Positions 32,948-48,600 of a stretch of DNA of 64,000 bases are shown piece after piece (position 1 is the first letter of the stretch; each line of letters starts with the position of its first letter). The position numbers were made by a program, and so were the translations under genes. Where the stretch lies: positions 4,593,001-4,657,000 of the forward strand of contig NC_134025.1 of assembly GCF_964204645.1 (NCBI RefSeq), given 5' to 3'. The notes beneath the pieces are model-generated. The model was not told the origin of the DNA and did not search any database. It worked only from the letters and a program-made list of their open reading frames with translations. The stretch comes from Tubulanus polymorphus (taxonomy: Eukaryota > Nemertea > Palaeonemertea > Tubulaniformes > Tubulanidae).

Positions 32948-33958
32948 TTATCCCGATAGACCGACCCAATGTGGCGGAAAATAATCGTCGTGGCTGACTA
33001 AACGCGCCAAAGATGAATTCTTACGCGGCCAATCTTTGTAATAAATGGTTGTCCCGCTTGCTAACCAGGCCGCCCACCAACCAAATGTACCAGTCGATAT
33101 AATAACGTGCTCACAAGAAGATAATATAGCCATATCTAAAGACGGATCTTTTGCTTTAGAAAAAACCACTTTCTCAGTCTTATTGGGTACATTTCTTTCG
33201 CACCACGGAATATCATCTGACGTTACGATGAACAACGTATTTTGACCATACAGTGACGTCATATAGTCCATCGCATTCCTCAAATAGCTGACCGGAACTG
33301 TAACATAACCGAAGTTAGAATAAGTTATCATATCTCCACGTCTTACATGTATACCGATGGTGGTGATTTTGGCACCAGTAAGCAGTGATAAATTGTATTT
33401 ATTACGATCGATAAAATTGACAGCCGCTCGTTTTATGTGTCTTCTGAATGAAAATTGTTTCCGTATTTCTTCCGTGTCATTTCGAAAATATTTCCAGGAC
33501 TGTAAATAGCCAGTAACACGGCTTGCGTACAAACCAGCTATGTTTATATTTCGGATCCTAGAGTCAAATTTACACGCATATCTCTCACGAAATACCTCAG
33601 TGACGGGCTCTTCAAGAACGGCAGAAGGTGCCGTCAATTCGTACATAATCGCTAGTTGAAAGTTGGTAGGAATAACGGGTATGGCGCCATGGTTTTTAGA
33701 AATTGAAAAAAGGGCTGCGTACTGGAACATCAAGTTACCAGTTCGTTCCATGAATGAAGCGGTCATCATCGGGGAGGGTTGCGCGATTTTTATCTCCTGC
33801 GGATATCGAAGTTTTCGCAAGGGAAGACCATGTTTTCGGGACAATCGAGTACTTACGAAAACCAAATCTTTAAAATGCAAGTGACGATGCAAAAGAATAT
33901 CAACAATTATCCATATCGCCAATATACAAGTGAACTTAAAAAAGAAAATCCCACGCAT
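32948..33958 (-). CDS. GT11-family fucosyltransferase (galactoside alpha-1,2-fucosyltransferase-like), 336 aa, intronless
   Basis: Golgi type II membrane enzyme that should transfer fucose from GDP-fucose to a glycan acceptor, most likely galactose in alpha-1,2 linkage. Residues 5-22 form a hydrophobic signal-anchor after a one-arginine N-terminus. Family motifs are present: TGNLMFQYAALF at 73-84; the donor-binding HxRRxD motif as GIHVRRGDM at 202-210; FIVTSDD at 243-249; and STGTFGWWAAWLASG at 288-302. Length and single-exon structure match FUT1/FUT2-type genes. The family is large in invertebrates and individual linkage specificity cannot be read from sequence. The start at 33958 gives the complete anchor. 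The gene is oppositely oriented to its neighbours and flanked on both sides by copies of one dispersed repeat. Confidence 0.9.
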   Translation of the reverse strand: MRGIFFFKFTCILAIWIIVDILLHRHLHFKDLVFVSTRLSRKHGLPLRKLRYPQEIKIAQPSPMMTASFMERTGNLMFQYAALFSISKNHGAIPVIPTNFQLAIMYELTAPSAVLEEPVTEVFRERYACKFDSRIRNINIAGLYASRVTGYLQSWKYFRNDTEEIRKQFSFRRHIKRAAVNFIDRNKYNLSLLTGAKITTIGIHVRRGDMITYSNFGYVTVPVSYLRNAMDYMTSLYGQNTLFIVTSDDIPWCERNVPNKTEKVVFSKAKDPSLDMAILSSCEHVIISTGTFGWWAAWLASGTTIYYKDWPRKNSSLARLVSHDDYFPPHWVGLSG

Positions 33959-43770: not shown

Positions 43771-43776
43771 TTTATT
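43771..43776 (-). terminator. Polyadenylation signal of the phosphonatase-like gene
   Basis: AATAAA on the minus strand, 184 bases after the stop codon at 43960. This is the nearest canonical signal in the right orientation. Confidence 0.45.
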
Positions 43777-43959: not shown

Positions 43960-44805
43960 TCAAGGTTTTTCACCTTTCGAAAGACGGTGATTGATCTCAT
44001 TAACAATATCAGGCAGTTGTACAATACTGTCTATTACATAATGAGCACCACTGTTGATTAAAATCTCTTGTGCAACTGTATTGCGTTGTTTCATATCATC
44101 TTCGCTGACTTCGTTTTCTTCCTCAAAAGAATTGATATTCATGTAGTTGCTGTATCTTGAAACAGCAACTGCCCAGCATCCGGCTTCAAGAGCTTCATGG
44201 ATTGTATAAGAAGTAGCGCCAACTTTAACAACTGATTGAATAGGACTAATATCCAAAAGGCCCATACTTTTGTAAATCATATGAGGTTTTGGATGGATTC
44301 CATTGTTCACTTCATCACTGGCAACTGTAGTATTAGGATGGTAGCCTTGTTTAACGGCAGCATTTAGTAAAATATCGACCATCGAACGCGATAGACAAGT
44401 AGTGCTTCCGATCTTACAATTCAAGTCCGTCTTTAAAGAATCTATTGCTTTCGATGTACCGGGTATCAATTCACCGTATTCGTGTAGACTTTTCATAAAC
44501 ATAGGCACAAAGTCTGAATACATACTGTTAACATCAGCTTCATTAGGTAATTGACCATGTAAATCCTTCCATCTCTTCGACACGGATGGAATTTTCAATA
44601 TTTCCAAAATCTGCAAATCCATTCTTAGTCCTATTGATTTACGTACATGTTCAACACCGATCGGAACCTTGTATTTTTTGAAAAACTGGTCGAAAACTCG
44701 CGTTGTGGCAAGGGAATATTTATTTGCAGAAGTTCCGCACCAGTCGAGAATGCAGGCTTTCACCGGTCCGGTATAAATCCGGTTGTAGCGATATAGAGAT
44801 GTCAT
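43960..44805 (-). CDS. Phosphonoacetaldehyde hydrolase (phosphonatase)-like HAD protein with altered active site, 281 aa
   Basis: Similarity to bacterial PhnX runs end to end: VKACILDWCGTSANK at 16-29, the QLPNEADVNSMY segment (bacterial QLPTEADI..MY), KIGSTTCLSR at 131-140, KVGATSYTIHEA at 194-205, and NSGAHYVIDS at 251-260. PhnX splits phosphonoacetaldehyde into acetaldehyde and phosphate using Mg2+, an Asp nucleophile and a Schiff-base Lys. Here the nucleophile remains (D21) and so does the core Thr (T136). Aligning by hand to Bacillus cereus PhnX, Lys53 corresponds to M62, His56 to Q65, Tyr128 to L138, the Mg2+ ligand Asp186 to A197 and Asp190 to T201. The fold is probably kept but classical phosphonatase chemistry looks impossible, so a pseudoenzyme or a different HAD activity is likely. 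The gene is intronless and divergent from PIGN. No targeting peptide is evident. Confidence 0.85.
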   Translation of the reverse strand: MTSLYRYNRIYTGPVKACILDWCGTSANKYSLATTRVFDQFFKKYKVPIGVEHVRKSIGLRMDLQILEILKIPSVSKRWKDLHGQLPNEADVNSMYSDFVPMFMKSLHEYGELIPGTSKAIDSLKTDLNCKIGSTTCLSRSMVDILLNAAVKQGYHPNTTVASDEVNNGIHPKPHMIYKSMGLLDISPIQSVVKVGATSYTIHEALEAGCWAVAVSRYSNYMNINSFEEENEVSEDDMKQRNTVAQEILINSGAHYVIDSIVQLPDIVNEINHRLSKGEKP

Positions 44806-45783
44806 CTTGTGTGAACTGTGGTGAAACTATAGAGAAGTAGAAATATTAAAACTGACTGCAAAAAAAGTACTAATATATATATTACAAATAAGGGTAAAGG
44901 AACGAAGATTTAGAAGAGAAGAGATAGAATAGAAATTGTTGTTGTTGTCAAATTAGAGCAATTTAGGATACTTTATTGATACAAAGCACAAGAACCAACA
45001 TTAGGCCTACTTAGAGGCCCGAGGACCATCCTTATACATTAAAACATCCAGTTTCACCTTCATTAATACTTACTCGATATATGTGCAATAGAAAGTACGT
45101 CTAAACGTTCCTGTCCAGTGAACTGACGCCAACGTAGACACTTTTATATTTCCGCATGTTTCGTCGAAGAGTCATGTGACCACATGTTACATGCTACTCC
45201 AAACAGTTTCACTTCCATTTAAAGCATAGTTTACCAACCAATAATTGAAATCTAATCCCTTTATTGAAATTCTAATTGATATGTGTTCATAATTTGATCA
45301 ATAAATTAATTCTTTATTCTACAAAATACGGAAATCACATGTCATTTGCCGGTACATGTACATGTAACATATACTTCCGCATGTCGCCTCGGTTTACACA
45401 TTCTCCGCAAGAAATATAATGGTTTTCTATCTTAAAGTTGACAATCGAATTATAGGTAATTACCAATTAAATTTTCAATATGTTTCAACGTATAAGATTG
45501 TCAGTTTCGAGTGTAGACGGCTTGCAATAATCCCGCTTTAAGGACAAAAGTCTTGAAAATAGCTCTCAATCAAATTCAATTTGTTTTTATTGTATATCTC
45601 TGGACTGTGGGATTTACTGGATGATAAAACTTTGATGTTATCGACCGAACTTCCAATCGTTCAAATATTATTTCTTTTCTAATCTTTTTCAGCATTTACG
45701 ATATTCAACGTGGAAATTCAAAAAGAAAGAGGTCACTATCCGGAAAATCATCGATCAGAATATTCTGTTCATAGAAATTAAGA
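44806..45783. other. Divergent intergenic region shared by the phosphonatase-like gene and PIGN
   Basis: About 980 bases between two start codons facing away from each other. Near PIGN there is a good acceptor (TCTTTTTCAG ending 45692) followed by a 91-base leader 45693-45783, so PIGN probably has one non-coding upstream exon. No TATA box is obvious on either side. No reading frame is supported. Confidence 0.45.
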
Positions 45784-48600
45784 ATGTCAACGATACTGCT
45801 TGTGATCGTTGGGCTTCTCGTCCATTTAGTATTTTTCTACTCGATATTTGATATATATTTCACATCTCCGTTAGTACACGGGATGACGCCACAAGTCAAT
45901 ACGTTACCGAGCCCCGCGAAACGTCTCGTACTGTTCGTCGCTGATGGATTACGTGCGGATAAATTCTACGAACTCGATGAATCTGGAAACACGAGAACGC
46001 CGTTTCTTCGAAATATAGTCGAACACGACGGAGCGTGGGGAGTATCGCATACACGCGTACCTACAGAATCCAGACCGGGACATGTAGCTCTGATCGCTGG
46101 ATTTTATGAGGACGTCAGCGCTGTCGCTAAAGGCTGGAAAGAAAATCCGGTTGAATTCGATTCGGTTTTCAATGAAAGTCGATACACCTGGTCGTGGGGA
46201 AGTCCGGATATCTTACCGATGTTCTCTAAAGGTGCGACCGGTGATCATGTCTTCGCGTACACGTACCCAGCAGGAAATGAAGATTTTGCTGCGGCTGATT
46301 CTTCCAAATTAGACACTTGGGTGTTCGACAAAGTGAAAGATTTCTTCCAAAGCGCGCGCTTGAATTCCACGCTTACAAAAATGTTACAGCAAGATAAACT
46401 CATATTTTTCTTACACTTGCTCGGTATTGATGTAAATGGCCACGCTCATAGACCATATTCTAAAGAGTATCTAAAGAATATCGAGACTGTTGATAATGGT
46501 GTTGAAGAAATTGTGGCTAATTTAGAAGACTTCTTTGGACATGATGGTAAAACTGCTTACGTGGTAACTGCCGATCATGGTATGAGTGATTGGGGATCGC
46601 ACGGTGCAGGAAGCTTGAGTGAAACACTAACACCTCTGGTTGCTTGGGGTGCCGGGGTTCGCAAAGCGAGGCGTTCTGAACAAAATTTCGCGGATGATTT
46701 CGCTAAAGATTGGAGACTCGAAGGAATTGAGCGCGTCGACGTCAATCAGGCGGATATCGCGCCTCTCATGGCCAGTTTGATCGGAATTTCATACCCAGTG
46801 AATAATGTCGGAACTTTACCGGTTGAATATTTACGAACAGACAATCGTTTTAAGGCTCACAGCTTGTGGGCTAACGCCCGCCAAATGATCCAACAGTTCG
46901 AGGTGAAAAAGCTCGAAAAACGAAACAGCACATTGTCGATGTTGTTCAAGCCTTTTCATAAACTTTCGAACTCGAAGAAGATAAAACTGATGGCGTCGTT
47001 GGAAGATCTCGTGAAAGCTGAAAGGTACAGCGACGCCATTCCATTAGCGAAAGAGGTGATTGAATTGGCTTTAGAAGGATTGACGTATTATCACAATTAC
47101 GATCGGTTCTTTCTGGGCACGAGTGTCGCCCTCGGTTACGTCGGCTGGATGGGATTTATCATTACTACAATCATTAATGAACATACCGGAATACAAAAAT
47201 TCAATAACAAAGTTCGAAATGGATCGCAATTGTTGAAACTGTGCGTGCACCTAATGTCGATATTTACGGCTTGTTTTATCATTGCTCTTCTCTACGTTCA
47301 ATCACTACCGGTCCCCTATTATATCTACTGTCTGTTACCGGTGATTCTTTGTGACCTGGTTTTATGTCGAATACAAGGATTTAAAGCCTTTATTCAGTAC
47401 GCCGCGCGATATCGACAAAACCTACGCGTTTGGGTGCTCATAATCATCGGATTGTTCGGACTTGAATTACTGTTGCTTAGTTTCTTTTATCGAGAAATTC
47501 TATCGCTGATACTTTTCGGTATGGGAATCTGGCCGCTTCTGACTCCCGTTACGAAACTGGACAAGCTAGCCAGAGCTGGATGGGTGATGAGTTGTCTTTG
47601 CGTTGGGTGCTTTCCGTTGATGCCTGTTGTCGGCAGAGATCATAATTATAACTATGTATGTGCTGCTTGTATCATAGCTGTTGCCGCTTCCTTATACTGC
47701 CTGCAAAGACCCGAATGTGGAATCGCTGCCACAAAGAAAAAAATACAGGATTCGCCTGTAATGTATCTGACTATTGTCCAGATAGTCATAATGATAGCTT
47801 CTATGATGATAGTGCTGTACACTTCTCAACAAATCAAAAACAAAGAAAGTGTACTCTTTATTAGTCAATTGATAAGCTGGTCAATTTTAGGTTTATCAAC
47901 AGTACTGCCATTACTAAGTAATTTACAAATAGTGACTAGATTATTTAACATAGCTTTAGCTTTAGTACCGCCGTATTTACTATTGAGCACTGCTCACGAG
48001 GCGTTGTTCATTGTTTGTCTGTGTTTTCTGATGTATTTTTGGATGCGTATTGAAAATGCGATGTATGGCAGTAAAAGCTTGCAGGTTTATCAATATAGTT
48101 TCGTTGAAAATGATAGCATAATACAATCATCGCACCGTCCATTGGTCGCCACAGATCTGAGAAGAGCGTATTTCTTTTTGTTCTTCATTATGATGGCATT
48201 CTTTGGTACTGGAAATATCGCTAGCATAAACAGCTTTGACCCATCATCTGTTTATTGCTTTGTGACTGTGTTTAGTCCATTTACTATGGGCGGTCTCATG
48301 TTAGTTAAAATTATCATTCCATTTTTGCTTGTCACTTGTACATTTCAAGCCATTCATGTTACAATGAAAGTTCCACTAAAAAGTCTTTTTCTCGTTGTGC
48401 TATTAATGTCCGATTTTATGGCCTTGCACTTTTTCTTCCTGGTAAAGGACCACGGAAGTTGGCTTGAAATTGGCACTACCATCAGCCATTATGTTATTGT
48501 AATGTCAACGATAATTTTTTTGATGCTGTTAGTCGGCTTGGCTAGGATTTTGACAACGTTTAGTTTACGTAAGATTCCTCTGCCAAAGAAACGTCACTGA
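45784..48600 (+). CDS. PIGN: GPI ethanolamine phosphate transferase 1 (PIG-N), 938 aa, intronless coding region
   Basis: ER enzyme that adds ethanolamine phosphate to the first mannose of the GPI anchor precursor, using phosphatidylethanolamine. Residues 5-25 are an N-terminal membrane anchor. A lumenal alkaline-phosphatase-superfamily domain follows, with the metal site and nucleophile visible: FVADGLRADKFYE (D54), PTESRPGH (T94), GIDVNGHAHRP (D216, H220) and TADHGMSDWGSHG (D264, H265, H273). From about residue 445 the protein is a multi-pass membrane domain with a dozen or more hydrophobic segments, ending in the basic LRKIPLPKKRH, which resembles a C-terminal ER-retrieval signal. Length fits animal PIG-N (about 930). 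The whole CDS is one uninterrupted frame, whereas vertebrate PIGN has around 30 exons and most genes in this window are split. A downstream AATAAA at 49151-49156 may be its poly(A) signal. Confidence 0.97.
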   Translation: MSTILLVIVGLLVHLVFFYSIFDIYFTSPLVHGMTPQVNTLPSPAKRLVLFVADGLRADKFYELDESGNTRTPFLRNIVEHDGAWGVSHTRVPTESRPGHVALIAGFYEDVSAVAKGWKENPVEFDSVFNESRYTWSWGSPDILPMFSKGATGDHVFAYTYPAGNEDFAAADSSKLDTWVFDKVKDFFQSARLNSTLTKMLQQDKLIFFLHLLGIDVNGHAHRPYSKEYLKNIETVDNGVEEIVANLEDFFGHDGKTAYVVTADHGMSDWGSHGAGSLSETLTPLVAWGAGVRKARRSEQNFADDFAKDWRLEGIERVDVNQADIAPLMASLIGISYPVNNVGTLPVEYLRTDNRFKAHSLWANARQMIQQFEVKKLEKRNSTLSMLFKPFHKLSNSKKIKLMASLEDLVKAERYSDAIPLAKEVIELALEGLTYYHNYDRFFLGTSVALGYVGWMGFIITTIINEHTGIQKFNNKVRNGSQLLKLCVHLMSIFTACFIIALLYVQSLPVPYYIYCLLPVILCDLVLCRIQGFKAFIQYAARYRQNLRVWVLIIIGLFGLELLLLSFFYREILSLILFGMGIWPLLTPVTKLDKLARAGWVMSCLCVGCFPLMPVVGRDHNYNYVCAACIIAVAASLYCLQRPECGIAATKKKIQDSPVMYLTIVQIVIMIASMMIVLYTSQQIKNKESVLFISQLISWSILGLSTVLPLLSNLQIVTRLFNIALALVPPYLLLSTAHEALFIVCLCFLMYFWMRIENAMYGSKSLQVYQYSFVENDSIIQSSHRPLVATDLRRAYFFLFFIMMAFFGTGNIASINSFDPSSVYCFVTVFSPFTMGGLMLVKIIIPFLLVTCTFQAIHVTMKVPLKSLFLVVLLMSDFMALHFFFLVKDHGSWLEIGTTISHYVIVMSTIIFLMLLVGLARILTTFSLRKIPLPKKRH

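Follow-up and report, generated by a model that had tools for sequence, protein, structure and literature searches.

An intact homologue of the bacterial enzyme phosphonoacetaldehyde hydrolase (PhnX) sits on an animal nuclear chromosome, with residues required for phosphonatase chemistry replaced. In the window, that is, the whole stretch of 64,000 nucleotides analysed here, the gene occupies 43960-44805 on the reverse strand and has 281 codons and no internal stop. What is an animal doing with a phosphonatase that lacks the Schiff-base lysine? Comparison with bacterial relatives points, with fair probability, to a phosphonatase that was acquired by transfer, lost catalysis and was kept under constraint, probably as a non-catalytic binding module for a protein partner or a ligand. 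The question matters for annotation as well: a phosphonatase label on an animal gene would be taken as a sign of aminoethylphosphonate breakdown.

The family assignment is straightforward. The frame is a single coding exon that starts with the ATG at 44805, ends with the stop at 43960 (included in the span) and encodes 281 amino acids; it was identified from the open reading frame, the NCBIfam equivalog model TIGR01422 and the solved PhnX chain 3iru. TIGR01422 is matched at 223.4 bits (E 2.7e-66) over model positions 1-251 of 251, narrowly passing the curated cut-off of 220 bits; three bacterial proteins of the nearest clade that were scanned for comparison score 279.8-287.2 bits. A Pfam scan of the protein gave no family at E 0.001. 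Among solved structures, searched by sequence, 3iru is the best match (E 1.3e-41), followed by six more PhnX chains (E 6.4e-37 to 6.1e-39) and, weakly, by 2oda (E 2.2e-5). Judged by sequence, the fold is probably largely kept.

The active site was read against 116 aligned bacterial relatives, made up of 80 loci (the best of at least 571), 5 plasmid records chosen from 50 with a match, and 31 of 34 sampled-genome loci, 3 duplicates being left out. In three genome samples a match at E 1e-40 was found in 7/369, 12/296 and 16/390 genomes, and, as a check for a viral origin, two scans of viral contigs turned up no relative. How does PhnX work? As described in the excerpt of PMC7916636, Lys53 forms the Schiff base and Tyr128, Met49 and His56 activate the water. 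The same excerpt has Mg2+ held by Asp12, Asp186, a water bound to Asp190 and the oxygen of Ala14, with a further water via Cys22, and the phosphoryl group bound by Arg160 and probably also by Thr126; residue roles are also treated in the excerpt of PMC11203657. The first-pass annotation of this DNA had proposed that the Asp nucleophile is retained and that five other residues are replaced. Alignment to solved PhnX chains and re-reading of the codons bear this out exactly. Asp12 corresponds to Asp21 (codon 44743..44745; all codons given here are on the reverse strand) and is Asp in 116/116 relatives, in part by construction, as it belongs to one of the two search patterns, the only one that 32 of the 80 loci match; the other named active-site residues are absent from both patterns. 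Lys53 has become Met62 (44620..44622) and His56 has become Gln65 (44611..44613), Tyr128 is now Leu138 (44392..44394), and in motif 4, residues 196-201 (G-A-T-S-Y-T; 44203..44220), Asp186 and Asp190 are replaced by Ala197 and Thr201. Further losses went beyond that list: the phosphoryl-binding Arg160 is His171 (44293..44295), Met49 is Ile58 and a Gly is Cys137. Lys53, Arg160, Asp186 and Met49 are each present in all 116 relatives and His56 in 115 of them, 80 of the relatives being the best of at least 571; such conservation speaks against chance differences and agrees with the proposal that residues needed for phosphonatase chemistry are gone.

Two of the five substitutions carry less weight than the first-pass annotation gave them. 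The change of Asp190 to Thr201 is real, but it is not diagnostic alone, since 78 of the 116 relatives have Gly there. Motif 4 among the relatives is either DD..G, with the acid at the Gly185 position (78), or GD..D (38); the GA..T of the animal protein is neither, position 196 is Gly rather than Asp, and both possible sites of the second acid are thus without one. Likewise, Leu138 does stand in place of Tyr128, but Tyr may not be its immediate ancestor: 99 of the 116 relatives have Tyr in this column and 17 have Phe, and as these 17 make up the whole of the nearest clade, the change to Phe may predate the animal lineage. The Ala14 column is Cys23 here and Ser in the nearest clade. Could the missing residues be an artefact of misalignment? 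No gap adjoins the five substituted columns in the printed alignments, and the flanks are near-identical to those of the nearest bacteria (GLR-M-DLQI against GLR-K-DLHI, and VVKVGATSYTIHE against VVKVDDTASGVGE), which rules misalignment out. Other active-site residues are kept, namely Asp21, Thr25, Gly59, Thr136 and Lys194.

The relatives also locate the animal protein within the family. The 17 nearest (clade S: L009-L013, L093, L094, L099-L106, L108 and L109) are 41-47% identical to it within the 116 aligned. They were first picked by an identity above 40.9% and put to a tree afterwards; of the 12 that are not among the 80 top loci (chosen from at least 571), 10 come from the class sampled around an Acidimicrobiaceae member. 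A tree of 36 rows was built from the 17, a choice of 18 from the other 99, and the query. It joins the animal protein to clade S with 100/99 support, and the end branch leading to the animal protein is 1.42 long where the median is 0.24. A quick tree of 86 rows with the five clade S members then known gives the same grouping with support of 99. Whether the animal protein is sister to clade S or nested in it is a node with support of only 59/82 in the 36-row tree, in which the unusual letter composition and the long branch of the query are known sources of error. Clade S has peculiarities of its own: Phe for Tyr128, Ser for Ala14, Val for Cys22 and one extra residue inserted ahead of the Arg160 motif. 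A phnW-like gene adjoins 3 of its 17 loci (L010, L013 and L094), and TIGR02326 confirms two of these genes with 544.6 and 536.9 bits. Some of the clade, at the least, therefore looks like ordinary phosphonatase; over all loci examined a phnW-like gene lies near 67 of 114, both counts being from short flanks only.

The substitutions cluster in the active site. Clade S has 86 invariant columns, of which 64 are unchanged in the animal protein; those that changed comprise 9/13 catalytic and 13/73 other columns (Fisher, p = 0.0004). If the comparison is made instead on columns conserved to at least 95% in the 116 relatives, it is 5/8 against 4/24 (p = 0.023). The six residues of the first-pass annotation alone give 5/6 against 17/80 in the clade S-invariant columns (p = 0.004) and 3/4 against 6/28 in the columns at least 95% conserved (p = 0.057). 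These Fisher tests assume that columns are independent, and the 13-column list was written from recall; 11 of its columns are named in the excerpt of PMC7916636, those of Thr16 and Gly50 are not. A second list, of 16 columns chosen after the alignment was seen, shows no significant contrast in columns invariant in all 116 (5/9 against 2/6, p = 0.61), and in a leave-one-out control with it bacterial sequences lose at most 1 active-site column each and the animal protein loses 6. Within the 13-column list, columns 23, 31, 138 and 201 are not the same even in clade S and Bacillus cereus PhnX, so changes there are weaker evidence. Of four regions compared, the cap has diverged most, with an identity to L010 of 0.32 (three bacterial pairs, 0.56-0.73), and the last 78 residues (204-281) have an identity to L010 of 0.56, inside the range of the same bacterial pairs (0.54-0.69).

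Is the gene truly part of the animal genome? The window covers positions 4593001-4657000 of its contig, C1, 4.6 Mb in, in an assembly of 267,791,593 bases and 77 contigs. Pfam matches were found in 9/10 further window frames scanned, the families including a family 11 glycosyltransferase, a FYVE-type zinc finger, Ig I-set, a Cys-loop receptor region, trypsin, F5/8 C and an MMS22L fragment. Bacterial contamination is ruled out because the window lies deep in the contig and is surrounded by animal genes (PIGN and exons of Ig-domain, Cys-loop receptor and trypsin type). The glycosyltransferase (fucosyltransferase-like) is a single frame of 336 amino acids at 32948-33958 on the reverse strand. PIGN, at 45784..48600 on the forward strand (PF04987, 413.9 bits), is the head-to-head neighbour, and as 978 bases separate the two start codons (44805-45784) the divergent pair may share a promoter region. 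PIGN is split into many exons in most animals; here its 938 amino acids stand in one open frame, which may reflect a retrocopy or a lineage of intron loss. Rfam and tRNA scans of the whole window gave no matches, and a COX1 search gave none either. The first-pass annotation had spoken of marine invertebrates; the sequence supports an animal host, though not specifically a marine one.

By consensus matches, the PhnX-like gene itself reads as eukaryotic, with a putative intron of 218 nt in its 5' leader. This would run from a GTAAGT (45068..45073, reverse strand like the elements that follow; first base 45073) to a candidate 3' splice site, TTTTTTTGCAG (44856..44866), which is 50 nt upstream of the ATG. 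The window has a single instance of the acceptor form, where 0.13 would be expected, and 12/100 shuffles have one too; its looser form, Y7-N-CAG, occurs 16 times with both strands counted. Candidate core promoter elements, by consensus, are a TATA-like TATAAAAG (45148-45141) and an initiator-like TCAGTTC (45126-45120), at a rather short spacing, and a candidate AATAAA polyadenylation signal lies at 43771..43776, 184 nt 3' of the stop codon. A protein search of the 267.8-Mb assembly gave one match, this locus, and a TIGR01422 search gave the locus and two weak matches on contig C3 (40.6 and 21.9 bits); no second intact PhnX copy was found by either. The two weak matches (L090 and L091) are about 3 kb apart, one of them within an open frame of 778 codons, and they are possibly other HAD-type genes.

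What could such a protein do? The first-pass annotation had suggested a sensing or regulatory role tied to aminoethylphosphonate. Spelled out as a sensor, the dead pocket would still bind 2-aminoethylphosphonate, phosphonoacetaldehyde or phosphate and signal through opening and closing of the cap. The pocket nucleophile, Thr25, Thr136 and Lys194 are kept, the cap is present at full length, and 2-aminoethylphosphonate occurs in many invertebrates. The genome was searched for other genes of phosphonate metabolism, exon by exon, a reading that split genes can escape. The PhnW model had no match over its cut-off, the PEP mutase model TIGR02320 had no match, and as both models also gave 0/14 control genomes over cut-off these searches are without a true-member control. 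The one weak PhnW match (26.6 bits) is presumably, from its appearance, an exon of an alanine-glyoxylate aminotransferase (AGXT type), and was set aside. Literature abstracts do mention 2-aminoethylphosphonate for molluscs and invertebrates, and genes for its synthesis are described in corals in the excerpt of PMC3640398. However, the losses include the residues on which the phosphoryl group and Mg2+ depend, Arg160 and the acids of motif 4, which argues against strong phosphonate binding, and the cap through which the signal would pass is the region that changed most of the four compared. The PhnW and PEP mutase searches, within the limits given, also count against the sensing role, which is not directly supported and which we consider unlikely.

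Another reading is that the chemistry was altered rather than lost, with Asp21 acting as nucleophile on a new substrate in a reaction independent of Mg2+, as in L-2-haloacid dehalogenase. HAD dehalogenases work without Mg2+, and retention of Asp21, Thr25, Thr136 and Lys194 does leave room for other hydrolase chemistry, a point that counts against a pseudoenzyme. However, motif 4 of L-2-haloacid dehalogenase is Ser-x-Asn-x-x-Asp, to which G-A-T-S-Y-T bears no likeness by eye, and the Arg160 of motif 3 is now His. Altered chemistry therefore appears rather improbable.

Is the gene simply dying? The first-pass annotation had argued that an intact frame of conserved length speaks against a decayed pseudogene, and a simulation of drift agrees for long decay. 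Starting from the present sequence, with substitutions only, 100 runs were made at each of seven distances. Drift that changes 6-8 of 12 active-site residues brings 8-10 stops on average, and 0/100 runs at every distance joined at least 7 of the 12 changes to an open frame; the active-site losses are thus unlikely to come from unconstrained drift. A more recent death, in which function went, the active site changed first and the frame is still unbroken, would fit the long end branch, the single copy and the searches for PhnW and PEP mutase (which can miss split genes). It would also fit the base composition: G+C at codon positions 1, 2 and 3 is 0.463, 0.356 and 0.342 in the PhnX-like gene and 0.472, 0.359 and 0.425 in PIGN, and the third-position value is below those of two other window genes (0.425 and 0.399). 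Against it stand the simulated stops and the clustering of changes in the pocket while 64 of the 86 clade-invariant columns are kept, and a recent death seems distinctly improbable. That the protein still works as a phosphonatase, its catalytic residues merely rearranged, is hardly credible, although the score over the TIGR01422 cut-off could be cited for it: no Lys or acid that could substitute was seen adjoining the lost positions, and Arg61 (by Met62) and Lys173 (near motif 3) also occur in bacteria with the standard residues, for example L010.

A transferred phosphonatase turned pseudoenzyme accounts best for these observations. A PhnX gene of bacterial type, akin to the distinct clade that Acidimicrobiaceae-type and other bacteria carry, would have entered the ancestry of the animal by horizontal transfer, either directly or through another eukaryote, and would then have acquired the eukaryote-like surroundings suggested by the consensus matches. 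From the published residue roles, loss of the Lys would preclude a Schiff base with phosphonoacetaldehyde, loss of the motif-4 acids would leave Mg2+ poorly held, and loss of Arg160 would do the same for the phosphoryl group. Preserved are most of the clade-invariant columns, Asp21, Thr25, Thr136, Lys194 and, above all, the C-terminal region; this retention suggests that the protein probably serves as a non-catalytic binding module, most likely for protein-protein contact in a dimer or with a partner. In favour of this scheme are the replacement of residues kept in 115-116 of 116 relatives and the long branch within a clade of 100/99 support; against it, the score of 223.4 bits is still over the equivalog cut-off of 220. 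That a gene passes a curated cut-off with its catalytic Lys, Arg and motif-4 acids gone means that such annotations need a residue check, and this one is likely mislabelled by automatic annotation. The first-pass annotation had also raised the idea of a repurposed animal protein. A wider version can be held only tentatively, namely that a captured enzyme of bacterial C-P bond cleavage became a standing family of animal pseudoenzymes, stripped of catalysis residue by residue, with fold and C-terminal surface kept for a regulatory or structural role. If the pseudoenzyme is maintained, it would offer a well-defined case for testing the uses of a dead HAD fold.

How does the protein compare with known systems? 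To PhnX proper (TIGR01422; 1fez, 1rql, 3iru) it is homologous over its full length, core and cap, with up to 47% identity to the bacterial members (116 aligned, of which 80 are the best of at least 571). It retains the equivalents of the nucleophile Asp, Thr16, Gly50 and Thr126 and the invariant Lys194, but differs in the Schiff-base Lys, His56, Tyr128, Met49, Arg160, Asp186 and the second motif-4 acid. With clade S it shares the RYSNYMNINS signature region besides the identity and tree grouping given above, but all 17 members keep Lys53, His56, Arg160 and the motif-4 acids and the animal protein does not. From the Mg2+-independent L-2-haloacid dehalogenases it is set apart by motif 4. Animal genes annotated as PhnX have precedents in excerpted texts: PhnX is among the foreign transcripts of bdelloid rotifers (PMC3499245), a PhnX-annotated protein is reported in hemocytes of the snail Biomphalaria (PMC6281880), and a PhnX-annotated gene of the coral Seriatopora carries the label 'Dino' for its origin in a transfer table (PMC4878875), so that routes other than direct transfer from a bacterium are conceivable. 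Among the matches listed in a search of open-licence texts, no title or opening of an abstract dealt with loss of catalytic residues in an animal PhnX.

The closest parallel is PcrP (PA2803) of Pseudomonas aeruginosa, a phosphonatase relative without catalytic activity which, according to the excerpt of PMC12632274, acts through protein partners. Like the animal protein, the PA2803/PcrP subfamily (NF053741; PSPTO_2114, 2oda) is a PhnX-related HAD group without the motif-4 acids and the cap Lys and has a conserved C-terminal region, again by that excerpt. The two differ in that the cap is truncated in PcrP, where the nucleophile Asp and the motif-1 Thr are missing as well, whereas the animal protein keeps both residues and has a full cap. 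Membership in the subfamily is rejected: NF053741 gives 47.2 bits against a cut-off of 240, the full cap aligns and Asp21 is present. Three intact bacterial PhnX proteins score 40.9-55.0 bits with the same model, and a value within their range indicates an independent loss. The analogy nonetheless lends moderate weight to the idea that the animal protein works as PcrP does, by binding a protein partner. A standing family of animal pseudoenzymes, as tentatively put forward above, would mean that non-catalytic phosphonatases arose a second time, independently of PcrP, and for the first time in an animal within what was searched. If the pseudoenzyme is maintained, it would be an animal parallel to PcrP in which a transferred catabolic enzyme has given up its chemistry and is still under selection.
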